Positions 4,629 through 46,385 of a stretch of 64,000 nucleotides of DNA are shown here, piece by piece (position 1 is the stretch's first letter; every line of letters starts with the position of its first letter). Where the stretch lies: positions 1-64,000 of the forward strand of contig NW_026516816.1 in the NCBI RefSeq assembly GCF_025766255.1, written 5' to 3'. Both the position numbers and the translations under genes were made by a program. The DNA comes from Zychaea mexicana. Taxonomy: Eukaryota; Mucoromycota; Mucoromycetes; Mucorales; Lichtheimiaceae. The notes beneath the pieces are model-generated. The model was not told the origin of the DNA. It saw only the letters and a program-made list of their open reading frames with translations, and did no database searches.

Positions 4629-5052
4629 TGTGGTAAACTAAGATCCGGTACAGACAGATGTCTTGATAGAATATTTCTCTTTACCGCATCGGGATCCAAT
4701 AAGGGACACGGTTGCGCACATGCACCTAGCTGGATTGAAATGTGAATCCTTCATATAACTCAGTAAAGAAACCAAGTATGAAACAACCGTCCAAGAACAT
4801 ATCTCAAACCATCATAAAAGTTTTTTATTCGTTCTTACAGCAAAGCACCAGTAGAGTCCTTGCTGACAAAGAAGTTGATAAGCTTTCCACCTTCAGATCT
4901 GTTTCTCTGTTAAGACCGAGTTCTCAAACAATGTTTGAAAGTTAGATATAGAAGAAGATAGTTTCTATAGCTGATATTGTACTTTGTTCAATCTTTTTGA
5001 ATATAATCCATTCTCAAACGACTTATTTGTCTTTGTTTATTTCGATTTACCA
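4629..5052 (+). repeat. 3' LTR
   Basis: Same length (424 bp) and same termini as the 5' LTR. Preceded by the purine-rich tract ggaaggggatga and followed by the TACCAAT duplication. Confidence 0.93.
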
Positions 5053-9779: not shown

Positions 9780-12700
9780 ATTTAACGACACCGTCGGTGG
9801 GACACGATGAGGAAACGTTGGCAACGCCTAAAGTATTTGAGCCATACCTGACAAGTGTTCGCAATAAGATTGACAGAGAAAGAAGAAGCAAAGGAGTGCC
9901 AGCTTGCTACGAAAGCAAGACCTTTTGGGTTTTGCCACCAGCCCTCTTTTTCGCTATTTACAAGAAGAAATACTTTGAACCAAACCGACTTATATCTGCC
10001 ACGTGTGTTCGTTTGGCTTGTCCACCTTTTGGTAGAAGAGCTCAAGTGTCCCAAGTGCAAGCAAAAACTCGAAGATTATGGATTTCCATTAAACCCACTT
10101 GCCAGACGCATCGCAGACGACGACGACTATTTTTACATCCTATCCTATCGTTATCAATGCAAAAAGGACGGATGCGACGCCAACACAATTATGGGCACAG
10201 ACGAGAACTTGATAGAAAAATCGCTACCCATACAACTTGCGCTCGAATATCCGGCCACTCTTTCACATAAAAGTGGTGTATCCAAGGAGTTGATGACAAA
10301 TATGCGGCTCTGCTTTGGTAACGGAATGGGGCCCGGTCCATTCGCAAAAGCACTGAGCACTAGACACCACCTGCGACACGACAAAACTGAATGGCAGTAT
10401 GCGGAAGGAAGACCAGAGCAACAAGAGCATTCTTACGAGCAACAAAATCCATCAACCAGCAGACAATCGGCAATCAATTCGTTTTACAAACCAGTGCACT
10501 CGGCATCGAGGAAGTTCAAGGATTTCCCATCATTTGACGATCGAGATGGATATGGTAGTTCGACACCTGGTCCTAGGTATCTCACAAAAATGTACAATGA
10601 ATTTGTTGAAATGCATATAAACGACCACTACAACCACATCAGCTCTCTACCAGCCACCGGAATCAACATTGACCACTGCCATAAGGTGAGTTTAATATAT
10701 TTGCTTTTTTGTGTATATATATTCTGACAAGTACTTTGTTTGTTTTTTATAATAGGTGACAAAGCATCTTTGCAAACTGGATTCGCGCAAAATTTTTGAA
10801 GGGTTGGTATCAATGACAAATGAATACGGAGATATTCGGTATCAAGCTTTTGTGCCTACTACATCCATGGATCCCATAGAACAAGGGACACAAGGTATAT
10901 TATACTTCCTTTCTTATAATTTTCTGATTGCATTACAGTAACCGAAACTAATTTTTGCGATCAGCAATGCTACAGAGTCTTACTGCCCATGGGCATCGTC
11001 ACCCAGAAATTCTTTTTGCTGACAAAGTCGAGGCCGGTAAACAGTATTTTGAAACACAAATCGAATCACTTCGTACTGATGTTCATCCACGTATAGTCAC
11101 TGATCCATATTATCATCTGGCGCAGCTACAGCTGCCATCAACAATTCCAGTAATAATTCACAGCTCACCGTTGCAAATCGAAGCTGCTTGGACACCACTA
11201 CTCGAGCAAAATGGCACTGAACAGCAACCGATCGTCGTTGGTCTTGACGCAGAATGGACATATCATCAAAACAAACCAACATGGCATCTAGTATCAGTAA
11301 TACAAGTTGCATACGACGACCGAGTATCAATATTAAAGCTGGAGAAGTTACTATTATTGCCACACGCTATCTGGACGCTGCTTCATCGCAAAGATATCAT
11401 CAAGGTTGGGCGTAACATCGCAAATGATATCACTCGGCTTTCACAATCTTTTCCTCAACAATTCAATAACCTTCAAGCATCCAATGTCGTGGACCTATTG
11501 ACAATATGAAACGAGTACAAATGCAAACCAGTTACTGGATCAAGTCTGGCAGATATGTGTGCAACAATCCTACAATATCGTCTATCCAAGGATTTACAAC
11601 AAGGCAACTGGGAAGGTCGACTTACTGACGAGCAAGTACACTATACAGCTTTGGATGTCTGGTGTAGTCGGCAAATTTATCTCCAAGTGACATCGCCTAG
11701 AAACGACATCATAAATTAACGAGCTGGTGTACATGTAACAGTACTTAGCGACGATGGTACTGTAGAGGTGGCGCGCGGGAAAATCAGCGATGCTAGACAA
11801 AGTGGGTATGTACATATTCTCTCCCTTACTTATTCCTTGCTTGCTCCAATTCGTAGTAGGAATAACACGATAAGTTAAATAATATTACTAATATTAAGCT
11901 AACCCTGGCTTTTTCCAGAGTCTTTAATAAGCGGACAATAACGGAAAATCGTGCACTGGTTGAAGTTACTAATGTCTTGGTTCCTGCGGCAAAGTTGCAA
12001 TTATGTGATAGCCAGCCACTTTCGTCATTTGGTGCTGCTCCGTTCTGTATATTAGTGCGTTTGTTGTCACTGCGTCCTTGCTATCAACTTATTGAGCCTG
12101 TCACCACCGTGCACAATGAGGAAACACTAAACATATCGCAGAGCATGGATCATCCGGAATCGCAAGCTGGTCAAACTGATCATAGCAGCGACAATGACGC
12201 GCAAGAAGCATGAGATATTTATGAAACTGACTCGGAAGACGACAGTGACGATGATATGCCGGTACCAACGCCAAACACTTTAGCTATCGATGAGAGCTCC
12301 AAGATTTATGGAAGTCGTCTCCTCGACCCTATTTTACAAAAGTATCGACCACAACGCTTGAAACAAGATAATGCCATCCACACCAGAATCGTCCAAGATG
12401 CTTGGCATGCGCTCAAGAGAATCTCAATACCAAAGAAGCATGGGTTACGCATAGAATTCCAGCGTAAATTAACCGACGCAATTTTGTGGATGGATTCTGG
12501 AGATGTTGCAGCTGTTACCCGGGTTCTGCATGAAAAAGGAGAGAGATTTGAATTGGGTATATATCTATATGATTCTCTTTTATTGTGGGCGACAAAGCTT
12601 AATTTAATATATCAAAACCATGTTATTTTAGTTCGCTGGCGTCGCAAATCTTGGATTAAGGAGCGAATTCGCCGCGTTGTCCCACCACCATTCAAAATCG

Positions 12701-13985
12701 TACAAGATGTGTACGATTATTCATGACGTTTGGACCTATAAAATGCGCCTCAAGTGGTCGGCCATTATTTGACAAACAGGCCTGGAAAGATGCACGAAAT
12801 TTGCTACAGCTTATTGGCAAAGGATATTTGAGCGATCAACCTGGAACGTCATTGTACTTGTTTCGACGACGGGATGAAATGGTTTGGCAATATGTCAATG
12901 CTTAAGGGGAACAAACTCTCTTGAGGGCGGTGTGCACCAGAATTTAAAGAGGTATTTTGGAGCTTTCAATGCGAGTCCGAGATTTGCAGTTAATTTGCTT
13001 GTCGAATATCGAACACAACATAATTTGCATGTAAGTGTATCTCATAGCATGAAAAAAGTGACCAATTTACTAGACAAACCAAGCTTTTTTTAAGTGGCAG
13101 GTTGGTACGCTGATTCGCACGGGCAAACAATACAAGGGACATTACGATATTTGGATGAAGAACAAAATCCAGCTTTCATACTTGCGACGCGAACTGCAGC
13201 TACCAAAACATTGGCTTGATTGGCAGAACACGGATCTGTTGGCCTCGACTGAAGAAAGGTTTGACATTTGTAAGACGAGCGACGAAAGCTTGGATACATA
13301 TGGCATGCTGCGTTACAGACCATCAATTGAACAGGCCAACAAACGAGATAGTGCAGCTGTGAGAGCAGCATATTTAGCATCTCGTCAAGGCACCCGGTAT
13401 CCAATACTACCTGTACGTACCATAGCTTTGTTCAGCCGACAGATATCTCAATTCTACAACAGTCAGCAACCGAACTCAACGAGGTGGACCGTTTTCGCCA
13501 AGTTATAGAACTCGACATAAACTGACGGGCGCAATATTTTTTATAAGTACTCACAGTATCTGCGCACATAATTCAGTAAATGGAGTCAGAACGCGGTGAT
13601 AAGGAACAGCTTGGAACGTACAACTTGCCCACGATCCCAAATACGTGATAACTCTGATCGTACTGCTCAAGTTTGGGATCCTCAATTGAATCTGCCAGCA
13701 CCGACACAGCCATCACCAATACAACGTATTACATCCAGACGGTTGCAATCTAGATATTTTGTCTACCAACCGCTTGCTCCACGACCAATGCAACAGCAAC
13801 AAGTTTATAGCCAATCTGATTTGTATTCCTTTGCACGTCCACCCATGTCAGCATACCGCCACCGCCTACTACATCTACACTACAACTGCAACTGCCTCCG
13901 CCGGCAATTATATCCAGCATTCCAAGTGCAGCCGCATATGCACTATAGTCCTACACCTCAGCAACAAGCAATCCAGCCACAACAC
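9780..13985 (+). pseudogene. Element copy A: DUF6729 + DDE transposase with inserted 3'-5' exonuclease
   Basis: Split frames share one order. An N-terminal helical segment (9780-10000) is followed by a zinc-binding module (10040-10400: CPKCKQKL then YQCKKDGC, ending LSHKSGVSKELMTNM...HHLRHDK), the DUF6729 pattern. Next is a DDE-like core: NIDHCHK at the 10685 intron boundary (first Asp) and ILFADKVEAGKQYF near 11010 (second Asp). Then comes a complete DEDDy exonuclease (11230-11695: VVGLDAEW, GRNIANDITRL, LTDEQVHYTALDVW), a helical block (12380-12560, DAWHALKRISIPKKHGLR), and RGTNSLEGGVHQN near 12910 with the likely third acid Glu. The C-terminus is Pro/Gln-rich. Introns such as 10687-10755 are visible. 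Stops (for example TGA near 11508, TAG near 13506) and frameshifts break it. I infer a transposon; its class is unnamed here. Confidence 0.7.
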
Positions 13986-13989
13986 ACGG

Positions 13990-14170
13990 TCCTTCAATTT
14001 TGGGATACGGTCCAATTTTGCTGGGATACGGTCCAATTTTGCTGGATACGGTCCAATTTTGCTGGATACGGTCCAATTTTGCTGGATACGGTCGGGATAC
14101 GGTCCAATTTTTGCTGGATACGGTCGGGATACGGTCCAATTTTTGCTGGATACGGTCCAATTTTGGCACA
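13990..14170. repeat. 20-bp minisatellite (ggatacggtccaattttgct)
   Basis: About nine tandem units of 20-21 bp, with some shortened units reading ggatacggtcgggatacgg. Because the unit length is not a multiple of three everywhere, long frames appear in four of six frames; all are repeat artefacts. The array lies immediately after the C-terminal coding part of copy A and is related in inverted form to 9340-9420. Confidence 0.9.
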
Positions 14171-14544
14171 GATATTGCTGGATGCGGTCCAAAAGAACGG
14201 CGGGCCTACAATGGTGTGGGTGTCTCTAGTTTAATAAAAATCCCTGCAATGGCCAATTGGGTCCTACAGCCATGTCGAAAATAATGGAGCCATTGAGAAG
14301 CAGATTTAGTGGAACCAATGAGAGGCAGTGAAAACATGAACAATATAACAAACGCCCTGGGCTGTTTGCTGTTTCATGTCAAACGCGTTCTTTTTTCTCA
14401 TTTCTCTTTCTTGTTGCTCTTTTTATTGATAACCGATAGTTATAGGAGGGAAAACGAGAAACACACAGCGAACGAGCAATACACCTCTTACTACTACAAC
14501 TGTTACGACTACTGCTCAACAAACTTTAAATAAATTTTTTCAGA
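14171..14544. other. Spacer between element copies A and B
   Basis: No gene seen. Contains caatggccaattgggtcc around 14250, a variant of the minisatellite words, and short low-complexity stretches. Confidence 0.5.
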
Positions 14545-17335
14545 CGACGCACTGACCCTCCTCGTGACAATAACTCCAGCAATCGCGCTGATTGCGATGA
14601 CTTGCTCGACAATAACCCCAGCATTGCTGCCACGCATGAGGGTGCTATAGAGGTATCTCGTCTCTTATATGGATTGGTATTCTTTTCCATATAATTAAGC
14701 TTGCGGATTTTTAGAGCGAAACTCAAGCTTTATCCGATATTGGTGATATGATGAATGAACTTGAATCTGGCACCATCGAAACCGCAGCAAATGATCAAGC
14801 AAATCATTCTCAAGATTTAGCAAGCGAACAGTCTCCAAGCAGTACAGGAAACGAAGATGAAACCGATCCAGACCCGGATGATCTTCCTGACTCTGGCGTT
14901 GTATCGCGTTATCTTTCAAAAATCACCAGCGACCTGAACGAGAATAAAGTTGCTATCTATCATAAAAAAAAGCTTTGAATTGAGCCAGATGACCCATTTC
15001 ACAGTCTCGACGGAAAGCCATTGGTACCAGAACCACTGTATTATCCGCGTGTATATGTGTGGGTTTCCGATCTGCCTGTAAAGGCTCGTATACTGTCCTA
15101 TCTGCACCAACAAATCTCTTCATTCCGATGGTTTCATCCTGCAAGGCGTATCGTCGGTACTGACAGGTAATGATAAGCAATATACGCAGAGTTGTTATCT
15201 CAATATAATCTTGACAAAATTATTGCTACCACAGTTGCCTTTACATTTTATCTCGACGGTACCGATGCAATACTAAGGACGGGTGCAAAAAACATTTGTC
15301 GGGCATAGCGAAGATATCATGAAGAACTCTCTCTTCCCAGCGTATTTGACACACAAGTCAGGAGTATCAAAGTCGCTGGCCGACCTTATGCGCCCGTGTT
15401 TTCAAAACGCATTGGGGCCAGAGCGATTACACGACCTACTGCAAGAACAGCATCATCTTCGCCATGGTCGCCTTGAAGTGACGTAGTTGACTACTATACT
15501 TGCGCGCCGTTCAAGTCCACAATATGTTGATCATCCCATTCCCGATACCTACCCCGCCATTTTCCTCTTTCGGCGATCCGTTAGGCTATGCTGGACATGT
15601 ACCTTCGGCAACATACCTGCGCTTGATTTACACCGCTCTGATCGATCAACTACGACCTTTGATTGACAAAGAGATGATGATTTCAGACGGTGTAATTTGA
15701 AGGGCGACCATACGTTTTGAATAATTAAGCACATGGCGAAAATTGGTGGAGAGCCTACCTTTTATGCTGTCTACACCGTTTGCAATGAATACGAGCAGAT
15801 CAGATTACAGTTACTCGTTCCTACCAAAAAGTTGTCACACCTTCGATCTCCTTCTGAAGAAATGGTCGAATCCTACCGTATCTATGCCCACCAACAGCCA
15901 GAGATCTTCTATACCGACAATGTCGTTGGCGATAAGAGCTCTGGAAGACGTTATCAAGTCACTAAAGCGCGATATTGATACCTCAACGGTACCACCAGCA
16001 ACATCAACATCAGCATCAGCAATTCAAATACTCCCCGGCTCTCAGCAATCGCCCTATTTATCGCTTCCATCCGATGTAACCCTACGTTACATTCAGTCTG
16101 AAAACGGTGCTGACACATATCTTGATACAATTATGATATACGTCGAATTTCTTCCAATACTCCACCAGTATCGATCGGGTAATGTAGTAGGTCGGCGCAA
16201 AAAATAGACATCAGCGCGAGCATCGTGGTCATTATGATCCATGGCTGACAGAGACTATAATGATTTTGCGCAACAAACTACATATGCCACGATTAGATAC
16301 ACATACGCTTGATGTCGCGGACAGTTGCTAATGCGATCCGAAAACGAAACTTTTGGTATTGTCGCCTTGCCTAGTAAGGTAGCAAAGCGAATGCATATGC
16401 GTTCTACTCCACAAGTTCGTTCCGAATCGACCATTACAAATTCCAAGCTTGTCTATATCAGTGTTCGTCTAGTAATTCTTGCTGGTGTGACCACTAACGA
16501 AAAAGGGCGGTAATATTCGTTTCTAGCAAAAAAGCAAGGCATTGAACGTGCACTAGTTTTAGTCCATACACCAGCCGAATTCACTTTATTTCAAGACGAA
16601 ATGCGTCGCTTGAGTCGTAATGGCAATCGTATCAACTGAAGAGCTTAGAATTTCAATGGAACGACCATGTGAGCGCTGTTAAACCGCCTGATGTATACTA
16701 CAAATCTGAGGAGCAGCGCTAGGCGTTTTACAACAGTTGCTGGATCACAAATCGTATTACATACCAAGCATCGATCGTGGCAATGGTATATGTGAAGCTG
16801 TGTGGGACGAGTTACAGTCTCCCGGTAGATCATTGTCCATACTGTCTGCACAACAACCAGCCCCATTACAAGTAACGATAAATGCTACAAACACCTTTCA
16901 CAATCAAGAACTAGAGCAGCTACATATCGCCCAGCCACAACTCAACATATTTGTCGCTCGAAATACCACCCCTCGTCGTCTTTTACCTGCACCACCAATC
17001 GCACGAATGCGTCGCTTGCTCCCTGCACCCATCATAGCCCCTCCAACGCTAGCGCCATCAAATTCACCACCACATTCATTACCAAATCCATTGTCTATAC
17101 CACCTCTTCCAAGTATCGAGCCTCTTGGAACATCAGCATCGTCAGCATCTCCAGTATCATCATCAACTCGCTACATGTCTTCAATTACCAGCAGCAATCA
17201 TAGCCCGGATGTCACTCGTCCTGAATACTGGCCAAGAAAGCGGACAAGAACATCTAAAAGAAAGAATACGAGTGCTATCCCACAAACAACAATAATACAT
17301 AATATACTTCCACGTCCACCACAAAATCTGTAGTT
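14545..17335 (+). pseudogene. Element copy B: same family, exonuclease and third acid deleted
   Basis: An acidic N-terminus (14748-14900, GNEDETDPDPDDLPDSG) is followed by the module start YYPRVYVWVSDLPVK (15040), then LTHKSGVSKSLADLMRPCF and QHHLRHGRLEV (15345-15480), closely parallel to copies A and C. The first Asp is preserved in GDHTF near 15705, directly followed by an in-frame TGA; the second is in PEIFYTDNVVGDK near 15905. After about 16130 the sequence jumps to HRGHYDPWLTE (16225), which in copy C lies beyond the RGTTSLEG motif. The entire exonuclease and the third-acid region are therefore missing. A Pro/Ser-rich C-terminal tail with a basic end (RPEYWPRKRTRTSKRKN) closes the frame at 17333. 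Many stops. Not functional by itself. Confidence 0.65.
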
Positions 17336-18059: not shown

Positions 18060-20160
18060 AGTCCTATCATGGTATTCTCAAAACCCAAGAAATTGATTCA
18101 GAGTTGCGCTCCTGCTTCCCAAACGAAGCAATCGAGCGAGACAAACTGCTCGCCAACGTTCAACGAGACATCTACGTTCGACTGCGGCCCCTCATTTTCC
18201 TCCTCCATTTCATGGAAGCGGAACCCGACTTGGTCCAAGAAGCCAGCTCCCCTATCTTGGAGGCTTTTGTTCGCAAAGTCTAAGAATGCATCATCCTCGA
18301 GAGCCATGCTGCAGAACGTCTACGGATCGAACGACGCCGCCTGTGAAACGATTGACAGCAGTGCGGAGTTGGTTGTGGAACTTTTCGGGCCCGAATTCCG
18401 AGAACGGTTTCATGCCGAAGCCAAGAATCCACGTCTATGTTTTCAAACCGTGGCAACACCTGTAGACGTGGACGCGGAAACCAACGCAGTAACAATTTCT
18501 TTGGACGCGGACGTAAGACGAGGCCAGGGAATTGGCTGGGGAGGTGGCACCAGCGCCTTCGTCACCTCCACCAAGAAGTTACTCAAATGGCGCCAACTAC
18601 GAGTCAAGCACTGGTCGCTCAGCCTGCGAACACGTTGGGTGCACAAAGCACGCGTTTTTGCTACAAGTCAGCTACTCTCTATCGAACACAAGTCACCGGT
18701 TGGGGCGCGCCTGGCCTCGATACCAACCAGCATTTGGATTCAGCGGGGGGTCAGACCCGTGGACCATGGCACACAAGAACGGTACGGGCCAGATACCCTT
18801 TTGCCAAACATCACCTAAGTCAATCGGCACTCAAGACTATCGGTTGAACATGTCCCGCCAGCAAGCAGCCAAGATGGATCAAGCTGTTCAAGAATTTCTA
18901 TTCAAGAAAGCGATCGAGAAGGAAGCTTCATCCGATATACACTATCAATCATATTTGTTTCTAATTCACCAACCTGACAAAGTACGCGTCGTGCTCGACT
19001 GTTCGGGTATCAACAAATACATACAGTACCAACATTTCAAGATGGAGGGTCCGCCGATGTGCGAGCGATGGTGCAGCCGAACGATTAGTTGGTCAAGTTG
19101 GATTTGAAGGACGCCTCTACATCTTCCTCTTCATCAAGAAGACCGTCGTTACCTGGCATTCATGTGGCGGGACCAGTTTCACCGTTTTAAATGCCTATGC
19201 TGTGGAGCTGCCCATGCGCCGATACTCTGGACAAAAATGATGTCTCGTACTGGGAACAAGCAAACCTTCGGCTGACTTTCTACTTGGACGACCTCTGCCT
19301 GATGGCGTCGAGCAAAGAACAAGCTCGCCAACAAGGAATGTTGCTCAAGGCACATCTGACTCAGTTGGGCTTCAGTCTGAGCAAGAACAAATGCTGTTGG
19401 GAACCGAAACATTGGCAAACCTTCTTGGGTTTCCAAGTCAATACACGCAAGATGGAGTTGTCCTTGCCGCAACCCAAAATGCTTCGAATTCGCCGCGACA
19501 TGCATCAGCTACTACAAAAACAACAACTCACCAAGCGCAAGCTGGCAGCTATCTCTGGCTACTTACAAGCGACAACAGCAGCAGTTTATCCAGCCCGCCA
19601 TCACATGTGGAACATGTCGCGCGACTTGCAGCAGGGACACGTCTACCGGTAAAACAACAATGGAACCAAAGCACGACGATCGCGGCAGCAACACGCCAAG
19701 ACGCCCGATGGTGAGTAAAAAAACTTGCATGCCTGGAACGGACGCTCCATGCTTCAACCAAAGCCAAACGTCGTCATTTATACCAACGCCAGCGTCTCCG
19801 GATGGGGCGTCGCGGCCAAAGAAGTACATTCAAGCGAGCATTATGCCATGGCCTCCGGCACCTGGGACTCCATCGCAGGCAGCCAATCAATCAATTGGCG
19901 CGAGCTTCGAGCAGTACAGCATGCAATCGATCAACACGCCGAGCAGTGGCAACAGCAAGTCATCGAGATCCGCTCCGACAATATGACAACATGCGCAATC
20001 ATCAACAAACAAGGAAGCCACAGACATCAACATTTACATCAACTTGCTTCCAAGATTTTCCACCACTGTCACCGCTACAAAGTACGGCAGTTTGCGACAT
20101 ATCTGCCTTGCATCAGTGATGGTGCACTATCAACTAGTGTGGCTCGTTTTTTAGGTGCGT
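18060..20160 (+). mobile_element. DIRS-type retroelement remnant (Gag-RT-RNase H)
   Basis: The Gag-like part carries IERDKLLANVQRDIYVRLRP (about 18130-18190) and an Arg/Gly-rich tail, RRGRGNQRSNNFFGRGRK (about 18460-18510). The reverse transcriptase follows with the DIRS-style lead-in GGSDPWTMAHKNG, then YLFLIHQPDKVRVVLDCSGINKY (first half), LVKLDLKDA near 19095, and the catalytic FYLDDLCLM at about 19280. RNase H is clear at 19740-20110 (VVIYTNASVSGWGV, SINWRELRAV, IRSDNMTTCAIINKQG). The tyrosine recombinase and methyltransferase expected at the 3' end are absent. At least two frameshifts and several stops, including TAG in the ND-stop-LVKLD stretch where a Trp codon is one transition away. 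Confidence 0.8.
18850..19652 (+). pseudogene. DIRS-like reverse transcriptase
   Basis: Two frames (18850-19107 and 19191-19652) must be joined through a damaged stretch at 19060-19190. The palm-domain aspartates are in KLDLKDA and YLDD. After the YLDD box come GFSLSKNKCCWEP and FLGFQVNTRKMELSLP, the usual thumb-entry pattern of DIRS and Ngaro elements. The thumb-like region (RRDMHQLLQ...KRKLAAISGYLQ) is complete. The enzyme copies element RNA to DNA; this copy cannot be translated whole. Confidence 0.82.
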
Positions 20161-20171
20161 GCAAAAAGTAG
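19725..20171 (+). pseudogene. RNase H domain of the DIRS-like element
   Basis: Begins with VVIYTNASVSGWGV (the first acid, normally Asp in YTDAS, is Asn here), then WRELRAVQHAI (Glu) and IRSDNMTTCAIINKQG (Asp). The frame runs on to a stop at 20169-20171 without a following recombinase. The Asp-to-Asn change at the first acid suggests loss of catalysis in addition to the upstream breaks. Confidence 0.75.
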
Positions 20172-20635: not shown

Positions 20636-23600
20636 ATTGAGGAACACTTCAGCAACACCACCACCACCACTTTTCACACCTGCACCTACATCAGCTGACT
20701 CTTCCACCGATCAAGTCAATAGCATTGCACAATTGAGGAACCAGGTGTACCACTTTCCGATTTGCTTGTGGATATTGAGCCTCTGCCTACAACTACAAAC
20801 AATGATGATGACTTGGATGAGGATGACGACGATTTGGATGGCACATTGTACCAGCAAGAAAGTGACATTACTGATGACGATGGTGATGAACCTGTCTAAG
20901 TGCAAGGCCATGTGCAAGCATACCTATTGGATATGCACAAGCAAGTAGTGGATGATGTGAGGCAATACGGTGAGTCACATCAATACAAGAACAAGCCTCT
21001 CTGGATATATCCGCCTGATGCCTTCTTTGTATTACGCGAAAAGCTTGACCCAAAGATGCTGTACTTGCCATGTATCTTCATCTGGATCCCACATATATTG
21101 GGAAGCATTTTCAAGTGACTCTTAAGTGTGTCTCATGCAATGGAGAATTGAAATCTAAAGGATACAACAACATTGGTCGAAGAGTAGTGGATCTTGACAG
21201 GTATGTGTTATATGGCATTTCTACCACTATTTGCGATTAACACATGAGATATTTAGCTCGTTCTATATCATTGGCACACGCTATCAATGCAAGAAGTGTC
21301 TTTCGGAACTCAACTCCCATGATCCAAGGCTTATTCGTCAGCTGCCTTTCTTTTTGCAATGTGAATATCCTGGTTACACTACACGGCGTTTGGCGTTATC
21401 GAAAACAGTGGGAGGATTGATGAGACCATGCACCCAAAACTCTGTTGGGCCCAAGCATTTTCAAAAGATACTACGCGAATTGCATATGCTACGCCATGAT
21501 CGACTTGATTGCAGTACCTCAACATTGCCGTGTATCGAAAGCAGCAGCAGCCATCCATCAACCAGTCACTTTCCTTATCCCATGATATCTTGCCATTCTC
21601 TCCATATCATGATAAAGAAGGTTATGCTGGTCATATTCCTTCTGCATTGTATTTTCGTTCCTTTGATGCATCATACGTATATTGAGAGCATGCGGCACCT
21701 GATGGATAAGCAGATGATGCTACGGGATGGCAAATATCTCAAGGCTGTCCACTCGTTCAAGATCGTCAAACTTTTGGGAATAGTCAACAGCTCACTAGTT
21801 TTCACTGCAATGTACACGCTATACAATGAGTATGAGGAATTGAGAATGCAACACCTTGTCCCGTCCAAAGCCTTGTCCCACCTGAAGCATGCATTTGATA
21901 CTATGCGATCAGCCTATGACCTTTATGCCCATGACCAACCAGAGATATTCTTTACTGACAACATTGGTGGTGATCAAAAGTTTCTTAAAGACGTTTTGCC
22001 ATCGCCGACAAGAGATGCCGTGCCTGTCAATACCCCAGAACCTGTGGATACCTCTCTCATTGATCATCTACCACCACTCACATACCTGACAACACCAGTG
22101 TACGATGTTTGAAAGATCCTGAAGCTATTTAAATGAAGTGCTAGTGGATTATTGTCGAGAGCAAGAATTGTGACTGAGAATGGACGTTGTGGTATCATTA
22201 TTGGTTTCGATTGTGAATGGCCAGTTGATCGATAGAGGATGGCAGAGTCTATAGGCAGCATAAGACCGCTACCATCCAAGTTGCATGCACCAGACATATT
22301 GATCTTTATTGCGTCTCTCATCTTGCACACTTACCACCATCGTTGATCACTTTACTCTCTACTGAAATCGTATCCAAGATTAGCCGTCAAGTGGGTGGTG
22401 ATATACGTAAAATCAAGCGTGATTTCGACTTGCATGAATTGGAACCCGATCGTTCTGGATGTCTAGAATTGGGAAGATTTTGCACAGAACGTGGAATCAT
22501 CCAAAGTGGGAAAACTGGACTAACGGATATATGTGCATTGGTCTTAGGCAAGAAGCTACCAAAGGAAGAGGATGTACGACTTGGTGATTGGGCTGCTGTA
22601 AACTTGACAAGTGAACAAGTACACTATGTCGCATTGGATGCATTTGCAGGGTTTGAGATCTACAAGAGGATAAGAGGGTATGGCTCTATTGGGAAAAGGA
22701 TTTCTGATTCAACAGAAGGTACGATCGACATATTATTACATTGTTATACTTGTGAGCTCATTGATAATACTAGGAATGCACGTGTCTTTCAACCCAGGAG
22801 CAATGAATGTAGCAGCTGCATATGGCGAATTGGTCAAGCAAGAATTCTTTGATGGCAGAAAGATCACCAGACCAACGTCGTGCTTCTTGTAAAAAAAATT
22901 AGTCATTGCTGGAGTGTTGAATGTTGATGGCCAACCATTGAGGTCTCGAGGACCAGTGCCATTTAAAGTCGTGGTCAAAAAAGCGTGATGTACATTATGC
23001 AGAAGTGCCAGTTGACATTAATTTCCCCACACACCCAGCTACCAATGATACAACAAATGGGGCACACAATGCAATGATGATAATCAGCCAGAGAATCCTG
23101 AAACAGGTATTAAGACGTTATATCGACTACATATTGATTTGAATAATAACTACAACTTAAGCAGCTTATGATACGATCAATCCTGGTGATGACAACCCTG
23201 ATGACGATCAAAGTGAAGATTCCACCAGCTTGGATTCAAATGATGATGTCGATAATGTTCCACACCCAGTATCAGGAGTCGATGTTAATAGCGTTGAGTT
23301 TGGACACATGGTTATGTGTACTCTTCCATCCACTGCATCATCTGATAACGTTGTCCGCTCGAGAGTTCTCAAAGATGTGTACCATTTGATGGCCATGGTT
23401 CGTGTACCACGAAAGCATGGAGCTTCTGCAGAATTTGCAAGAAAGCTTCGTGACGCTCTCTTTATCGTTGACTCTGATGACAAGGCTCGTGTGGAAGCTA
23501 ACCTAGCAAAGAAAGGAATGACGTGGAATCAAATGCTTATCAAGAATAGCGATTGAATATTACGACGAGTGAAACGTACGTATCAGCGAGTTACAAAAAT

Positions 23601-25075
23601 AAATATCTAATAATCTTTCTATGTAATAGATGTAATACCTCCTGCAGAAACATTGTATTTTATCATCAAGCAGCTTTTTGAAAGTTATGGGCCTATCAAA
23701 TGTGCAAGAGCTGGAAGACCTTTGTTTGACAACGAGGCATGGCAACAAGCAAGAAATGTTCTCACAACAATACACCATGGCTATGTATCTGATCCACCTG
23801 GAATGTCATTCTATTACCTGATGCGCTATGATAAAAATGGCTTGCCATTGTATCGTTGTTGCCGAGGAACAACTTCTCTTGAGGGTAGTATCCACCAAAA
23901 TGTGATTCGAAAGTTCGGATCATTTGGAGCTAGTCCTCAGCTTGCAGATGCAGTATTGGTCGATTATCGTTTACGTCATAATATCGATGTAAGTAGCTTG
24001 ATGTTTTATGTACACACTCTGAAAGTAATACATGGCAAACTCATCTAACGTGTGTTTATTGTATTAGGTTGGTACCATGAACTGGTATGGCAGATTGCAC
24101 AAAGGTCACTACGATCCATGGCTCCTTCAATGCATCGCTGATTTACGTGTTACACTCAGATTGCCGACAAGTCAGGGTGATGCTGGTGCTCATCATCATG
24201 CATTATATCTCACTTATGATAAACGATCTGCAATTGAAGCCATACCAGCAATCGATTGAGACACCATGTGACACACCGATGCAAGTATCCACTCTCATCT
24301 TGATCCAAGGAAGAACTTCGCAGAAAATAAAGTCTCAAAACGATTTTCTGAGCAAGCGACAAGGAACAGCATTTGCCGTTTTACCAGTGCTCACAGATGT
24401 TGAGCACAAGATGTTCAACTTCCTCTTGGCACACCACTTCCCAGATCACATTACCAAGCGTGTTGACTTTGTAAAGTTTGCTCGTATATGGTCACGCTAC
24501 GCTTGTAAAACCAGCATTCACTACACAACTCTTGAGTATTTACGTTCACGATACACTGTGTGGAGAGATTCGAATAATGCAGCAAATACACGGATTAACA
24601 ATGAGAATGTAGTAGCTTCGATTAGTCAGCTTGTTCGATCCACTAGAAGAAAAAGAACAGCACCACCAGCACTTAATCCAAGACCACTCAAACTATCACG
24701 TCCTACTCAATTGCAAACATCATCACCTATCGTACTATCAGCTCAACTCGCTAACATTGACAACAACAATTCCAGTCAGCCATCGGCACTATCTCCTAGT
24801 ATAAAACATTTATCACCATCATATATAGCAGCTCCTAACATAGGACATATTGCATCAAGTACCTCATCTTTAGCACCAAAGCCGATTGCTACTACACCAC
24901 TAGCTGTAAACCACAACATTGTCCCAAATAACGTTTCCCAACATCACGCTACAACTACCACGAACAACACCTTGAGGGTATTTCCAAACGAAGTAGACGT
25001 TGTGGTAAATGTTGTCAATTTGGCTGTAAAGGAAGTGGTGGTCGTTGTAAATGTGATAACATGCAGAATAAAGAT
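20636..25075 (+). pseudogene. Element copy C: longest copy of the DUF6729-exonuclease-transposase family
   Basis: An acidic N-terminus (DDDLDEDDDDLDG near 20820) leads to KNKPLWIYPPDAFFVL (20985) and the zinc module: TLKCVSCNGELKSKGYN (21120), a GT-AG intron (about 21201-21256), then IIGTRYQCKKC (21275) and LHMLRHDRLD (21485). The transposase-like core has KAVHSFKIVKLLG near 21745, where other copies have Asp (the GTC codon is one base from GAC), and PEIFFTDNIGGD near 21945. The exonuclease spans 22195-22680 (GFDCEW, GGDIRKIKRDF, LTSEQVHYVALDAF) with a one-base frame slip after GFDCEW. The helical block YHLMAMVRVPRKHG (23380) and RGTTSLEGSIHQN (23865) follow, then HYDPWL, FVKFARIWSRYACK (24470), and a Cys-rich end RRCGKCCQFGCKGSGGRC near 25000-25050. 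At least three lesions, including a changed catalytic Asp. Confidence 0.72.
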
Positions 25076-25939: not shown

Positions 25940-26430
25940 GTGGTATACGATACTGTACCTAGAAAATGTAATGCTTAGGCAATATATTGGTTAACGACTT
26001 TCATTTTGCATTACTATGCTTTCAATCTTGATAACTTATCTACTTATTGATAAGTGCGCTTAAGTGCAGTGTGATAAATAGGTGGTATGAACGGCCAAAG
26101 AAGCAAAGAGCCTGTAGCCAATAAAAGAAAGGGTTAGCAGCTCACTACCCTGAATATAAAACATAAGCTGTTTCGTTTAAATGTCAAAAAATTGAGTAAT
26201 CGTTTTATTGTTGGGTGAAATCAGCGAAATGAAAAATATCGTTTGTATATATATGATAATTTTATTATCCTTCATTTTTTCCAGTTGGAGTATGAGACAA
26301 TCCTTGCGTACGGATGATACGCGTGACGATAGATCGTTTGTCATGGTTTTTAGCGGTAGACATTGACATGTTGTGCTAGAAGAGCAAATTTCTTTTTCTG
26401 CTCTTATACAGGACCGGCTAGCGGTACCAT
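25940..26430. other. Intergenic; 3' flank of microprotein gene 1
   Basis: No independent gene. The segment 26340-26430 is the transcribed 3' side of the minus-strand microprotein gene and resembles the 3' flank of its paralogue at 45592-45670 (shared aagaaatttgct and atgtcaatgtctaccgc), but with insertions and deletions. Confidence 0.5.
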
Positions 26431-26622
26431 CTACTTTCGTCCTCCTGGAGGGCGGTAAACATAAGGGCAACCTCTATTAAAATCAAAAATGATAGATAGA
26501 TGTTGACGCGACGAGTTAATGTACCCCATATTTGATGACTGTTGCTACTAATTGAAATAATAACCAAAGAAGATACTTTACGAGTAGGAATGAGTCTTTT
26601 TGCCACAGAACATACAAGGCAT
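26431..26622 (-). CDS. 27-residue CCHC zinc-knuckle microprotein, copy 1
   Basis: Exon 1 is 26622-26582 and exon 2 is 26473-26431, separated by a 108-bp GT-AG intron (26474-26581) that splits a Ser codon. The product begins MPCMFCGKKTHSYSG and ends YRPPGGRK. Spacing C-x2-C-x4-H-x4-C with Gly directly after the second Cys is an exact CCHC zinc knuckle; the last Cys is contributed by exon 2, so only spliced mRNA encodes the full motif. The paralogue at 45397-45591 has the same exon structure and the same 27 residues: I count five base differences in the 84 coding bases (stop included), all synonymous, while intron and UTRs differ freely. A TATATAAAGG box lies 130-139 bases upstream of the ATG. 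Zinc knuckles usually bind single-stranded nucleic acid; the role here is unknown. Confidence 0.8.
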
Positions 26623-26751
26623 TGTGGATCGTTGGAGCTGTTAGATTCGTATGTTGTTGCGATGGTTGGAGTGGGAAAAAAGTTCTTCGTGGATAAACTA
26701 AACTGTTGTGTTGTGATGTGTTGGAGAATTAGTGACAGCTCAAAAACGAGT

Positions 26752-26761
26752 CCTTTATATA
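26752..26761 (-). promoter_or_regulatory. TATA box of microprotein gene 1
   Basis: Minus strand reads gatatataaagga. The paralogue has ggtatataaagga at the matching distance from its ATG. Both are followed by a CA-rich leader with the shared word atcacaacacaacag. This points to a strong, conserved core promoter. Confidence 0.7.
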
Positions 26762-26764
26762 TCT

Positions 26765-27870
26765 TTTTAACAAATGGTTGACCAATCGTTTAATTTACAT
26801 TGACAACAGGCACTTCTTGTTTCTGACCTGTCGTCAATTTCCCTTTGTCTTCGTATGGAGGGTGGGTACATCTTTGGAGAAACTAATCTTTATTAATGCA
26901 TGACTCGCTGAGCGTTTTCTACATACAGATTTTCCACACTTTCGGCTAATGTAAAAATGAGCTCCCTCCTTTGCACATTTATCGTCAATGGGAATTTCTT
27001 CTTCTTATCAAGATTCTTTGTCTCTGATATACTACGATGTTGTCTAATTATAAGAAAATAGACTCTTGCAATATCAGATTATTGGTAAAAGTCACCCTCT
27101 TTCAGAGATCAACATGTACAAATGAGGATATTACATAGAAACCCTAATATAAAAATACGTTGTCATCAAAAAGAAACTGTGATAATTGAAAGCTGTACAT
27201 TATATCAAATTCCAGAATTGCGTCAATTATTGTTTATCATTGTACTTGGAAAATTTCGAACAATATACAGGACAACAACTATCAATAGCGTTGCTAAGAT
27301 GATCATCCTTCGAGTCATTATCCTGATAAAACCTAACAGTATAACTACTGTACAAGGTATATTATTTTCTTTTTAAACAACGTTACTACCAGCTTGCGAA
27401 ACAATAAACTAATATTTAACTTATTGCTGTCTGGTGTGTTAACCTTTATTTGCTTTTTGGTCCTAGCCATAAAAATTGCTGTCTAGCTTTTTTTTATATT
27501 ACACTTTTTGCCGATGGATGGCTGTTTCAATTTTATGGTGTACGTAGATACCTTGCTCTTGTTTGCTAAATTGAACTTGATAATAATCATTATGCTGTCA
27601 CCTACGAAAGAAACATGTAGATGCGATTCTCTGTATTATAGTACATGTTTTTAAAGGCGTCCAGTATTTAGCAACACCACCTCGAGTTATAATGACCGTT
27701 GTCAGGGACTTGATAAGTTGCTAGAAGTAAAAACAATGCATTGAGGGTAGTATATTGTGATGAATCATTAAGGACTGTGGCCTGGCGGACAGCTGTAAGA
27801 TTGGTCCAAAAACTAGTCGAAGGCAGATAACGTTTGGGTTTTGATTCTAATTTCGTTGGGGTTAAATTCC
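26765..27870. other. Intergenic, no supported gene
   Basis: Short AT-rich frames only (for example 27122-27376, Ile-rich, no domain). Nothing recognised. Confidence 0.5.
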
Positions 27871-37229: not shown

Positions 37230-38620
37230 CACAAACCCTTTCACCACGTTGCTGAATAATCAACGCTGCTTGCACCAAAATACTTCCAAATTTGGAAAGT
37301 GCTTTGCTCACCTCCACATCATCGCTTGCCGTCACCCCCCAACCCCCCAAAAAAAATTGACCTTGCTGGCTGAAACATGTACACGTCTTCAAAAAAAAAT
37401 CGAGATGCTTCTCCCATGGCGTATATGGCAAAATACGCACGATTTCTCTTTTTATAGCAAAGGCTCAGCTGCCGTCCAGACAACAAGTATATCGACTCCT
37501 AAGTGACGGTTTGTTCTCCGCTACTGTGCTTGATGCGTATACATGCAACAAGCTTTTCTCTTTCTGCATCCGAGCGAACCAGAGATATTTTCCTGCCACG
37601 ATAATCTTGTATTGTTTAAGCATATACAGAGTAAACCCAAGTATATTAATAGTAGGAATGCTCTGTATTAACGTTGCATAGTAGTATCTATTGTCCGTAG
37701 CATTAGCACGCCATTTCTATTAGTAGATACAGAAAAAGAACGTATAAATTGATATAGTAAAAGCTTAAACATATAACGGGATCTGCGCTGGTAGCTTTAA
37801 AGTAGTTTCGATGCAGTCTGCTGCTGCTTTGTAGTTGCCTTCGGCCCACGAACATATTACTGAGGCTTTGTGGGTGGTGTGTGGGCCGTAGTAGGGTAGA
37901 GGCTTCGTTCCTTCCCTCCCTCAGCCAATACCAATACCAATGCTCGAGGAAGACGTCATTAGCAGGGTGCACGACAGCTGCAGCAGAAGCCCCTCCTCTA
38001 ATTCGATCCATCCGACAAGCCATGATGATACTCTCGATCCAACATCTGCGCTGTTGTTTACTTTATGCTTTTAAGATGGCCTTCACCGCATCATAAAAAA
38101 GCTCATCCTTTTCTATTCCTTCTTTTCTGTAACCAAAGGAGATGATACGTTTGTTCTGTCAAAAACTTGATGCCTTTGACATAATTTTTTTCTTACTGCT
38201 TCTCCCATCCATTTGCTAACTAGGTAATTAGTGTAAGTTTATATTATAGACGCCGTGCCTCTTTTTCGATCTAAACACGATACCATATACGCATCGTTGT
38301 CAGTCACATACACAGCCTCAGGTAGCTGACCGTGAAAATCATACGGGTGTGGTGACCTGATATTAAACGTAGAATATATATCCATACATGGATTGTTTAC
38401 CCAGTGGTCATGTGTACTGTATATGTGCAATTCTTCCACGATGTCCTTTTCTAGTTTCTCGTCTTTTATCGTCCTATCCTATTTTTCTCACTATAGGGCT
38501 CCTGTTGCTTACAGATAAATCCGCGCACACGATATACTATATTTTTATATTCTGATTAGAGCAAAAAAAAAACATCAAGCGCCACTGCCCTTTGCAGATA
38601 TGAAGCCGGAATTTCTGGAC
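37230..38620. other. Intergenic, no supported gene
   Basis: Several short frames (for example 37703-38023 minus, 37881-38096 plus) overlap one another and lack domains. Pyrimidine-rich segments near 38100-38200 and 38440-38500. Nothing recognised. Confidence 0.45.
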
Positions 38621-38625
38621 ATAGG

Positions 38626-38880
38626 TGTAACAGTGTCGGCCCAGATACTTACAATCGGGAACGTGAATGGGTAGACAGTGTGGATCAATGAATAAGGTGA
38701 GACTCGGATATATCAAAGGATAAAACGATGGGGATCCATATAACTCAGGATCCCGTCTTTATATATACGTCGAGTAATAGGGGGCTAGCTATCGTCTAAG
38801 TATTGATCTACATCATGACTTCTATCTAGAATATCCACGCCTATTATTCAACCATGCGGTTGACCGCAAGTCATCCTATC
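38626..38880. repeat. 255-bp LTR-like dispersed repeat, copy 1
   Basis: Starts tgtaacagtgtcggcccag and ends gaccgcaagtcatcctatc. A near-identical copy is at 42997-43258. Starts with TG, carries a TATA-like tctttatatatacg in the middle and has no coding frame, so a solo LTR is the simplest reading. No flanking target duplication is evident. Confidence 0.8.
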
Positions 38881-42205: not shown

Positions 42206-42996
42206 ATCTTTCATTGTTCTGTCGTGATTTTCATGTGTCCTTCTTTCCAGCGATGAGTTATTCGTTTCAGTTCAATAATGTATATACGCCCCGGTGATGC
42301 AACGGAGAGACATGAGGATGTAGATTGAAACACCCTGCTGCTGCTACGACAATGGCCAATAAGGATGGTGGACACCTTTACATGTTCACTAAAACCTTGG
42401 GTTACACAAGGTTTAAAAAAGACATAGTTAAGCTATTTTACTTCATGGCGAACTGCCTGCGCGACTGTACAGCGAAAATATATAAAGTTCCGGATACCTG
42501 GGTTGTCTTTGACCCGTCCATATGATATGTGTACTACAGAAAATATTAGGCTGAGGGAGCACAGGAATAAATAACATTAAACTTATTAAATATCAAATAT
42601 ATAAATCGTCATGACGATCGGTGGCGAGAGCGGAGGGTATCGAACGAGTTCAAGCATATAATGGCCAGAACACTGTTTTTTGTTTTTCTCGACCGAGGCT
42701 AACTATATTAGAAAAGAAAAGAAGCGTCGTCAAACTGCGTTCATGATTTCGTATAAGGAGGTTAATGCACATGCGGCAAACTTTGTTAACGAACCTTGCG
42801 ATGATGTGGTTTCTGCTCGGTTTGTGAGTGTACAGCAGTGTGTGTGTAAGCACTTCCCTTTGCATGAATTCTAGTAGAGCTAACAGCATGTCACAACCCT
42901 CGTCAAAAGCAATAAGTGCGAACATCTCTTTATTTGAAGTAAGATTTATCTATAACTCCTTGATTTTCTATATCACCCTATGCTGTTTGCCATGAG
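42206..42996. other. Intergenic, no supported gene
   Basis: A 66-codon frame at 42325-42525 (HLYMFTKTLGYTRF, TWVVFDPSI) has sensible composition but no family and no partner exon; left unannotated. Confidence 0.4.
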
Positions 42997-43258
42997 TGTA
43001 ACAGTGTCGGCCCAGATACTTACAATCGGGAACGTGAATGGGTAGACAGTGTGGATCAATGAATAAGGTGAGACTCGGATATATCAAAGGATAAAACGAT
43101 GGGGATCCATACAACTCAGGATCCCGTCTTTATATATACGTCGAGTAATAGGGGGCTAGCTATCGTCTAAGTATTGATCTACATCATAACTTCTATCTAG
43201 AATATCCACGCCTAGTACTCCATATTCAACCATGCGGTTGACCGCAAGTCATCCTATC
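42997..43258. repeat. LTR-like dispersed repeat, copy 2
   Basis: Same orientation and ends as 38626-38880. Differences seen are a few transitions and a small insertion near 43214 (agtactccat against attattca). Homogeneous along its length, so both derive from the same short source unit. Confidence 0.8.
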
Positions 43259-45260
43259 CTCTGAACCATGCGTTGTCGATCGTCAACCATGCAGGTTGGA
43301 TATCGTCGTAACGGTATGCACCGTTACAATAGGCATCTAGAAGCCATCGGTTCCAAACGTGAAGGGCAAAGGCTTCAGACCAAAGGACAGCGTCTCGACG
43401 TGTACACTAATATTAGTCCACACCTTCATAACAGACACGTTGCAGCTGAACTCTCAAACCTCAGCTCCAACAGCGACTCATTTAAGCTGACAGGCGGCTC
43501 TCTGTTTTCAAATTTGAAGCTTCCAGAACCGTTTACATCATGCACGAACAAGTAAAAGAAAAATTTCTCAGTTGTAAACTCAAGAGAAGAAGGGAACGCA
43601 GAAAAAGGGTAATTTTTCAAAAGTCGCAATGTATGATATATCATAAAAAGCATGATGATACCATCTAACTTATTCTCTTCCAACTTATAGTTGAAAGCGA
43701 ATGCGAAGGTTCGTGAAGCCAAAAAAAGAAGTGAAAGAACCCCATTTATTGCGGTATACATCGCTGCCGATGTTCTTAAGCGTCAAAGAATGGATAGCAT
43801 CTATATGATGCGGAGCGGAGGAGAACGCTCCCGGCAGGCGCATTGGGCGGCAACCACAGTTGTTACTTTAAAACGAAATTCGGTCAAGTCAAACATCCCG
43901 CTTCGCTATTCATCTCTATCACTGCTCCCAGCAACAAAGTTTAATTAAAGGCAAAAAAAAGCGAAGAGCAACATGCCACGGTGCATCGACGTGCCTCAAT
44001 CCGAACTGTCCTGCCGTGATAAAGAGCTGGTTAGACATCCATGAAAACAGATATTCAGTTGACGCAACAGCAATCGGTATTGCTGCTGTAGCCACACTTT
44101 TTTTCCATGATAAAAAACGTTTTCATGCTTTAATCCATCATCACAATCGAGTAATAATAAACACTGTAGCCGCCAGTTTCCAACTCGATTACTAAACTGG
44201 TCGCTTGCTTTCGCCATTTTCCCATATGTATGGTACGTATAATACCTCTCGAAGATAGTCTTTTGGTGGTGGCAACTATATAACTGCTGTTATGCGATGC
44301 TTCATCTCCAAGTGCTGAACAGGAATCCACTGTCCGCAATCCTCTCAGCTATACCATGAGCGTCGAAATTGTTCATTGAGTTACAAAGCCCCCAGTAACA
44401 ACTCATTTATTGCAGCAGATACAACTGGAATTCAATGACATGAGTGCTAGTTTTCAACGCAGTTTGGTTTAACTTGTAGTGATAGATGCTTGACTTTATA
44501 GTATAGCAAGCAAATAATAAAATTGACAAGTATCTTTGTTTGTTTTCAACTATACAGGCACATTCACGTATGATGTATTCTCAAATGTGATGGCGGGTGA
44601 AACATTGGACCCTGTAATCTACAAGATCCTTTTGCTTCTGACAACAGCTAAAACTTCGATCAGATTAAGCATTTACGTAACAACAAGACAATGACTCACC
44701 GTGATTGATACCAGCATTACTCGTTTGTTATGATGCTTTATTGTTCTTACTCTTATTTTTCCCCTGCACAACAATGAATTTATCAAGATACTGTACATTC
44801 AAAATTATCGCTATGAGCAAGGTTTAGATCATCGATGCAACATCGGATTGACGACACAGTACTTTTTATTGCACTCACCGCGTAAGTTGTCTATCAACGA
44901 TTTTGATCTACACATAGGGGATATTACAGAGCTTACTACAACGATGATTAATTTTAGTAGCTTAGTTATTATATCAGAGAGAGGGTCTAGAAACAATAAG
45001 AAGGGCTACTATATCTAAATAAATGCCAATAAAGATGTTTCACTATGTGTACAAAATAGTGTTATGTGTTTATGCAGAAAATGCTCAGAAAGTTAAAGTG
45101 GTGTGTTTGTTCTTGCGTGCACCAAGCAAGAAGAGATTTTCCCAGTAAGATGCACCCCTCGTAGAGAGAAGAAGAAAAGGTAATCAGGAACAGGTCAGAA
45201 TCAAGAAGTGCTTGTTGTCAATGCAGAAAGAAGATAGAGACAACCATTCTTTTTTTAAAA
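43259..45260. other. Long region without a supported gene
   Basis: Frames at 43268-43555, 43426-43761 and 43691-43948 overlap on opposite strands and show no domain or consistent splice sites. 44400-45200 is AT-rich spacer. The last 150 bases before 45260 lead into the promoter of microprotein gene 2. Confidence 0.45.
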
Positions 45261-45266
45261 AAAAGG

Positions 45267-45276
45267 TATATAAAGG
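45267..45276 (+). promoter_or_regulatory. TATA box of microprotein gene 2
   Basis: Sequence ggtatataaagga, 130 bases before ATG 45397, as in the paralogue. The leader between them shares catcacaacacaaca and cgacaacaaacgaatccaa-type words with gene 1. Confidence 0.7.
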
Positions 45277-45396
45277 AACCGTTTTCAAACTGTTAATCAT
45301 CCTCCATCACAACACAACAACAGCTCAAGCCAGAAAGAGCTCTTTTTCTCTCGCTCCAATCATCGCGACAACAAACGAATCCAACAACGACCCACA

Positions 45397-45591
45397 ATGC
45401 CTTGTATGTTCTGCGGTAAAAAGACCCATTCCTACTCGTAAGCACCATTGTCTTTCCTTCACTTACAACATCAATTGCTTACGGTGGAACTTGAGGCTGG
45501 CTCACGCTAACACTATCCATCATCTATCAATCATTACTCTTCAAATAGCGGTTGCCCTTATGTCTACCGCCCTCCAGGAGGACGAAAGTAG
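45397..45591 (+). CDS. 27-residue CCHC zinc-knuckle microprotein, copy 2
   Basis: Exon 1 is 45397-45437 and exon 2 is 45549-45591, with a 111-bp GT-AG intron containing a CTAAC branch-point-like word. The spliced frame gives MPCMFCGKKTHSYSG followed by CPYVYRPPGGRK, the same 27 residues as the paralogue at 26431-26622. Differences in coding bases (TGC/TGT, GGT/GGC, ACC/ACT, the split Ser TCC/TCA, GTC/GTT) are all silent. The alternative frame through exon 2 (MSTALQEDESRWYDR) is not preserved in the paralogue, which argues that the short frame is the selected one. The knuckle C-x2-C-G-x3-H-x4-C is followed by a basic, Pro/Gly-rich tail. I know of no named family of this size; a link to a retroelement Gag knuckle is possible. 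Confidence 0.8.
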
Positions 45592-46385
45592 ATGGTACGA
45601 CCGGCCAGACCTGCCTTCAAGCAGAACAAGAAATTTGCTTCTCCTAGCCCATGTCAATGTCTACCGCCAACTTTAAAGAAATGATTCATTGATGCCCATC
45701 TACCTATAATCACTCTTTATGTGGTTGACTATTAGTACCCTTCCAACAAAAACAAAAACATCTTCCGTTTGTCACAATAAACACCTTTTCCATTGGATCA
45801 TTGAATATCAATATGTCCCATCAAAACTATTTCGTAGCGTTCAGCGACAAGGTATTTCTTGGTTATGGTTCTTTTAACATTCTCGAACATCTTTGATCGA
45901 TTTCTGAAACAGCCGACACACATACGACTTTGATTGTTTCAGCCGTTTCGGCTGTACTTGGTCACAGTATGATAATGATCAGCTTCTTGTAATGATGATG
46001 CGTATCCTGGTGAATATTGATTGACGTAGCTTGACGATGATTATAATGGTACAAGGCATTCTTGAAATATAAAAATGGTTTTGCTGCCGTTGTCATTACT
46101 CTATAGCAAGAATCTCATTGAATGCTGGTTGAGTGTAGAAAGCAGATACTATGGCTTCCCTTTATCTTGAATTATCCAAACAGATCAAGAAACCGCTCAT
46201 ATCGAACTTTCGCCAAACCAGCATAACAAAACGGCACGTCCTGTGCGTTCACCTATACTACAATTCATTATGTAGCATACTATCTGGCACCAGTCCAACA
46301 AATACAGCGAATGCACTTTCTGTGTACACACATATTTCACCACATTAAAAAGAAACAATAAAGCTACTACAGTATCAAGAAGCGA
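45592..46385. other. 3' flank of microprotein gene 2, otherwise empty
   Basis: The first 80 bases resemble the 3' flank of gene 1 (aagaaatttgct, atgtcaatgtctaccgcc). A 65-codon frame at 46151-46348 has no domain. Confidence 0.45.

Follow-up and report, generated by a model that had tools for sequence, protein, structure and literature searches.

Knuckle 4 of the TRAMP proteins Air1/Air2 (ZCCHC7 in human), represented in Pfam by PF21759, has the same CX2CX4HX4C spacing as the predicted microprotein from Zychaea mexicana that we describe here. Air1 and Air2 are described as having five knuckles, which bind RNA and Trf4 (PMC4361618), and the IWRxY motif after Air knuckle 4 is described as binding Trf4 together with knuckle 5 (PMC10767929). 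The microprotein and yeast Air2 knuckle 4 have K-x-H-S and C-P-x-[VI]-[WY]-R in common; however, whereas Air1, Air2 and ZCCHC7 have five knuckles per chain, the microprotein comprises one knuckle in 27 residues and lacks a knuckle 5.

One-domain zinc finger micro-proteins, which have a single zinc finger and fewer than 70 amino acids, have been studied in Haloferax volcanii (PMC6562870); these are archaeal, and the likeness, drawn by description alone, is that a single finger makes up the whole protein. In its length and ligands the Zychaea microprotein fits the single-finger, <70-residue definition of that source (PMC6562870), its zinc binding and translation being predicted. The knuckles of retroviral and retrotransposon nucleocapsids (PF00098) have the same ligand spacing and basic character, but differ in that the microprotein would come from a stand-alone, apparently spliced cellular gene and is not listed by PF00098. 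Within the host genome, two multi-knuckle loci (L014 and L018), which we take to be CNBP/Gis2-like from their tandem knuckles, have knuckles that, like that of the microprotein, seem to be interrupted by introns; they have, however, several knuckles per protein and, on hand reading, introns seemingly elsewhere in the knuckle.

The reading that we consider likely is that the Zychaea locus comprises two divergent paralogous coding genes that encode the same 27-residue knuckle protein; each gene would have one intron, short UTRs and a TATA-like promoter of its own.

Layout of the gene pair

The window, by which we mean the whole stretch of Z. mexicana DNA that was analysed (64,000 nt), contains two copies, a and b, of a predicted spliced gene, arranged divergently with start codons 18,774 nt apart. 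The sequence-only reading had placed spliced loci at 26431-26622 (minus) and 45397-45591 (plus); both are found there, and their splice signals match. The parts of the two copies are:

26582..26622, minus strand: copy a exon 1, with the ATG at 26622; codons 1-13 and 2 bases of codon 14
26474..26581, minus strand: copy a predicted intron, 108 nt; GTAAAG...TTTTAATAG, ending AATAG
26431..26473, minus strand: copy a exon 2, with Cys16 (the predicted fourth zinc ligand), the basic Pro/Gly tail and the stop TAG
45397..45437, plus strand: copy b exon 1, with the ATG at 45397
45438..45548, plus strand: copy b predicted intron, 111 nt; GTAAGC...TCAAATAG, ending AATAG
45549..45591, plus strand: copy b exon 2, with the predicted fourth zinc ligand, the tail and the stop TAG

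A 41-nt coding exon 1 and a 43-nt exon 2 make up the 84-nt CDS of each copy, and the spliced translation is MPCMFCGKKTHSYSGCPYVYRPPGGRK, of 27 residues, in copies a and b alike, as the claim of identical products had it. After splicing, both copies would give the ligands Cys3, Cys6, His11 and Cys16, spaced C-x2-C-x4-H-x4-C. The knuckle is followed by the basic tail Y-R-P-P-G-G-R-K, the Pro/Gly tail described earlier, and the whole 27-residue peptide has a mass of 3.05 kDa, a computed pI of 9.6 and a charge of about +4.6. Because the fourth ligand lies in exon 2, and because a retained intron would stop the frame at once (an in-frame TAA arises from the first intron bases, leaving a peptide of 14 residues that lacks the fourth ligand), the metal site would be completed by splicing. 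The unspliced window gives a count of zero for CX2CX4HX4C in any frame (mean 0.25 in 20 shuffles).

The unit shared by the two copies in the pair alignment is about 480 bp, from promoter through 3′UTR, and contains the following flanking elements:

26751..26761, minus strand: TATA-like box TATATAAAGGA of copy a, 128 nt before the ATG; identical in both copies
45267..45277, plus strand: TATA-like box TATATAAAGGA of copy b, 119 nt before the ATG
26798..26830, minus strand: 33-nt upstream element of copy a, 31/33 identical to copy b
45191..45223, plus strand: 33-nt upstream element of copy b, 31/33 identical to copy a, in surrounding promoters that have diverged
26353..26370, minus strand: 18-nt 3′UTR element of copy a, identical to copy b
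45650..45667, plus strand: 18-nt 3′UTR element of copy b, identical to copy a

The TATA-like box occurs at exactly two places in the window, one per copy, and a search of the 50.3-Mb assembly allowing up to 3 mismatches gave no third place for the 33-nt element. The 18-nt element has two extra matches in the assembly at 2 mismatches; since a backward control also gave two, these are likely due to chance. The box and the 33-nt and 18-nt elements are additions to the sequence-only reading, and because the duplicated unit has them, each copy looks like a complete small transcription unit. A reading of the 33-nt element and its flank as an inverted repeat (TTGACGACAGG...CCTGTTGTCAA in copy a) was dropped, as hand reading found it absent from copy b. 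Inverted duplication of a larger block was also rejected: when all stop-to-stop frames of at least 40 aa were compared against the window, no second shared stretch around the copies came up at E up to 1e-4.

Other features of the window include 230-nt direct repeats, 97% identical, at 38620-38849 and 42991-43220, between the two microprotein genes. A frame with a Retrotrans_gag domain (3420-3821) has 300-nt direct repeats on either side, at 2406-2705 and 4629-4928 and 98% identical to each other; repeats and frame together have the look of a short LTR element, perhaps one with gag only. An ISXO2-like (DDE_Tnp_IS1595) transposase frame lies at 5830-6594 (minus strand) of this fungal contig, and pieces of reverse transcriptase and RNase H are found in short frames at 19191-20171. 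Several protein-level duplications, diverged to about 27-57% identity, are found both inside the regions 9852-16328 and 20900-24256 and from one to the other; a 3′-5′ exonuclease domain (22229-22849) lies in one of these.

Conservation between the two copies

The coding sequences of copies a and b have 5 differences in 84 nt, at positions 18, 21, 30, 42 and 57, and no indels. All 5 fall in third positions and are synonymous, in agreement with the five synonymous differences noticed before; the chance that 5 of 5 random changes would be synonymous is P 0.0005-0.0019, for a transition/transversion ratio (kappa) of 1-10. When all six frames of the 84 spliced nucleotides are translated, the coding frame alone is free of amino-acid differences; the other five, including those of the opposite strand, have 1 to 5 each and were rejected on this ground, and copy a has 4 internal stops in the rival frame with 1 difference.

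The exons align without gaps, exon 1 at 38/41 identical (92.7%) and exon 2 at 41/43 (95.3%), whereas the intron gives 54/104 (51.9%) with 11 gap columns. Upstream of the CDS, identity is 85/116 (73.3%, 18 gap columns) in the leader, taken as the 125 nt before the ATG, and 88/126 (69.8%, 18 gap columns) from -260 to -125; downstream it is 69/108 (63.9%, 4 gap columns) over the 3′UTR's first 110 nt and 59/134 (44.0%, 12 gap columns) in the following 140 nt. The earlier description of the introns (108 and 111 nt) as largely unalignable is right at 52% identity, but ‘wholly’ would overstate it: the intron pair has 0.47 matches per column, against a shuffle mean of 0.30 and maximum of 0.43 (40 shuffles), a slight residual similarity. 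Identity drops right after the donor GTAA and recovers at the acceptor AATAG, and this is the strongest sign we have that the intron is genuine. A branch-like site, ATTAAC in copy a and GCTAAC in copy b, is aligned within the divergent introns, and splicing of both copies is predicted from the splice sites and the alignment.

That purifying selection acts on a tiny spliced protein, as the sequence-only reading proposed, is thus well supported at the sequence level: the differences keep to one codon position, indels are absent, exon and intron contrast, and neither rival frames nor RNA folding hold up, all of this coming from one pair of paralogues. We hold it to be very probable, on this comparative evidence, that the 27-codon frame encodes a microprotein. 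Since blocks in the leader, the upstream region and the 3′UTR are conserved too, part of the constraint, as judged from the alignment, falls on DNA or RNA.

Type of knuckle and number of copies

The best Pfam match of the peptide is AIR2-like_ZnK4 (PF21759; E 0.016, 15.7 bits, below the curated cut-off of 27 bits), followed by zf-CCHC_4 (E 0.18); the generic zf-CCHC profile (PF00098, curated cut-off 20.8 bits) did not list it at E up to 10. The earlier term ‘complete CCHC knuckle’ therefore stands for the four ligands and their spacing, but not for the generic profile. Among 10 control knuckles, picked as pieces from 11 fetched stretches of the assembly, 9 matched PF00098 and 1 matched AIR2-like_ZnK4; this one was the host Air knuckle 4 (E 0.0061), and its cut piece, at 17.0 bits, is also under the PF21759 cut-off. 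The AIR2-like profile is a weak instrument, since AIR2-like_ZnK4 is missing from the matches (E up to 0.01) of the host Air protein when this is read over 163 aa; a PF21759 search of the whole assembly gave no match, which is uninformative, as 14 control genomes likewise gave none. A PF00098 search of the assembly, in which 150 of 175 candidates were scored, gave at least 148 matches at E up to 10, many of them in frames of more than 400 aa.

By ungapped BLOSUM62 scoring over 20 columns, in a comparison of 14 knuckles that left aside host Air knuckle 2 and one further row, the Air knuckle 4 sequences (yeast, host) rank first and second with 50 and 39, and the next score is 34, common to two knuckles. 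The peptide is identical to yeast Air2 knuckle 4 at 8/20 positions and to host Air knuckle 4 at 6/20, four of these being the ligands. None of its PDB matches is significant, and retroviral nucleocapsid/Gag chains (best E 0.17) stand above Air2 (E 0.51). The host Air protein, a multi-knuckle product of locus L012 (C12:30400-33900) with exons joined by hand, matches yeast AIR2 in PDB at E 2.4e-16. Its hand-called introns lie after the third residue past the His in knuckles 3 and 4, in phase 0, and the microprotein intron is one base earlier than that in knuckle 4; this Air-like place is suggestive, not proof, because other knuckles of the Z. mexicana genome seem, on hand reading, to be interrupted elsewhere.

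The IWRxY motif is absent from the microprotein, which has VYRPP in its place. As a separate observation, the hand-joined reading of L012 has IVHTY at the Trf4-binding IWRxY place. Going by its sequence, the microprotein is not classed by us as an Air protein, because of its 6/20 likeness to host knuckle 4, its want of IWRxY and knuckle 5, and the PDB ranking.

DNA searches for homologues covered the Z. mexicana assembly, viral contigs and prokaryote genomes. With 491 nt of copy b, the search of the organism's own assembly (about 50 Mb) found copies a and b, and all 4 exon matches of a peptide search of the same assembly came from these two. An exon-1 pattern search of the assembly found the two copies and one place with 3 mismatches (C46:202827-202852), which we take as chance and not as a third copy, the start and first Cys being missing; the best local alignment to either copy within the surrounding 3,026 nt is 21 nt long and lies at that place (E 0.003, for a single 3-kb subject). 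The exact degenerate exon-1 pattern is absent from the viral contigs and prokaryote genomes, where none was expected. Among proteins of about 23-73 aa in the protein database, none has three 5-residue words in common with the microprotein, and among those of about 55-173 aa there are 2 word-sharing candidates, none at E 10 or better; NCBIfam has no family for the peptide, and none of four strings from the peptide occurs in the literature text searched.

The neighbouring ORF 46718-47371 matches hypothetical protein BDB00DRAFT_775088 of Z. mexicana (86% over the unspliced ORF), and the named entries among the 25 protein matches listed for it (20/25) are all of Mucorales genera. The host thus bears out the sequence-only reading's choice of Mucoromycota as the group in which to look for relatives. 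The protein collection therefore has this group within its scope, with entries from Zychaea and further Mucorales, and its having no matching protein supports the earlier expectation that gene finders would skip such a gene. The microprotein is so far known from one genome, in two copies, and is unannotated; its sequence reads as that of a real stand-alone single-knuckle microprotein.

Rival readings and a possible role in RNA metabolism

The mature transcript might be a conserved non-coding RNA in which the 27-codon frame is incidental, and with this would agree both the conservation of the leader, upstream region and 3′UTR, including the 33-nt and 18-nt blocks, and the folding of the copy a 3′UTR, which is somewhat better than that of shuffles (z -1.8; copy b is not, z 0.7). 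However, the mature transcripts, with assumed ends, are not clearly below dinucleotide-shuffle energies (z 0.8 for a, -0.5 for b), the coding parts fold worse than shuffles (z 1.5 and 1.1), the window is without an Rfam match at gathering score, and the exon differences are confined to third positions of one frame. A structured RNA is not supported by these folding scores and the Rfam result, and a conserved non-coding RNA is in our opinion improbable. That the identity of the products is due to chance or history, the duplicated exons having happened not to drift, we regard as very improbable: two copies and five differences are indeed the sole material, but 5/5 synonymous changes have a P of about 0.001, the introns differ at 48% of aligned sites, so that the gene pair is not young, and gene conversion of exons only would presumably have to skip the intron.

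The 27 residues might also be only part of a longer product, to which a third exon would append residues with C-Q-C-L-P; a possible donor (AAA/GTAGAT) coincides with the stop, and TTCTAG or CTCCTAG could be the acceptor ahead of the 18-nt block, which by hand reading is identical and in the same frame in both copies, with an in-frame 3-nt difference before it. Yet the would-be intron aligns far better by BLAST than the predicted intron does, the 18 nt are without a third-position change, the stop TAG is kept in both copies, and homology stops straight after the block, so that the tails of such third exons would be unrelated; there is thus little likelihood of a longer product. As for the possibility that a Gag nucleocapsid, or another kind of transposable element, left the knuckle behind as a relic, the numerous zf-CCHC matches of the assembly, many in frames of >400 aa as elements have, and the Retrotrans_gag frame 23 kb away could speak for it; but the microprotein gene has two copies in the assembly, a predicted intron and its own promoter, no gag or pol domain was found in the 10 window ORFs scanned, and the peptide is more like Air knuckle 4 than like the other knuckles compared. 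Read on in frame, the sequence around the knuckle runs into stops no more than about 45 codons upstream and again right behind the 27 codons, with no gag frame, and we give an element origin hardly any credence.

Returning to the two small coding genes, we propose that each copy would be transcribed from its own TATA-like promoter, and that splicing would join Cys16 of exon 2 to the ligands of exon 1, so completing the metal site. Zinc could then induce folding of the single knuckle, and it is likely that the microprotein is a zinc-bound knuckle. Single CCHC fingers of the retroviral type fold alone; in the literature text searched, nothing was found on single knuckles folding alone. The folded basic knuckle might bind single-stranded RNA or an RNA-processing partner, as the knuckles of Air2/ZCCHC7 do, with the tail adding contacts; we put forward tentatively, as somewhat less than an even chance, that the microprotein binds RNA or RNA machinery. 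Because Air1/Air2 knuckles bind RNA and Trf4 (PMC4361618), a free knuckle could be an RNA-binding adaptor or a competitor.

An action on TRAMP specifically is improbable. It would be a speculative extension to suppose that a free microprotein resembling Air knuckle 4 tunes nuclear RNA surveillance, by taking the knuckle-4 site on RNA or on a Trf4-type poly(A) polymerase in competition with the host Air protein. Should it be such a competitor, splicing of the intron within the knuckle might conceivably switch the metal site on and off, and a 27-residue microprotein of dominant-negative-like action, kept as two copies, is a similarly unlikely suggestion.

If translated, this would be a very small spliced protein gene under comparative evidence of selection, shorter than annotation usually keeps, and the case shows that two paralogues from a single genome can be enough to uncover such genes when transcripts are lacking. 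The peptide is defined, and its zinc binding, RNA binding and partner are directly testable; it raises the question of whether single zinc knuckles may serve as free regulators of RNA machinery.
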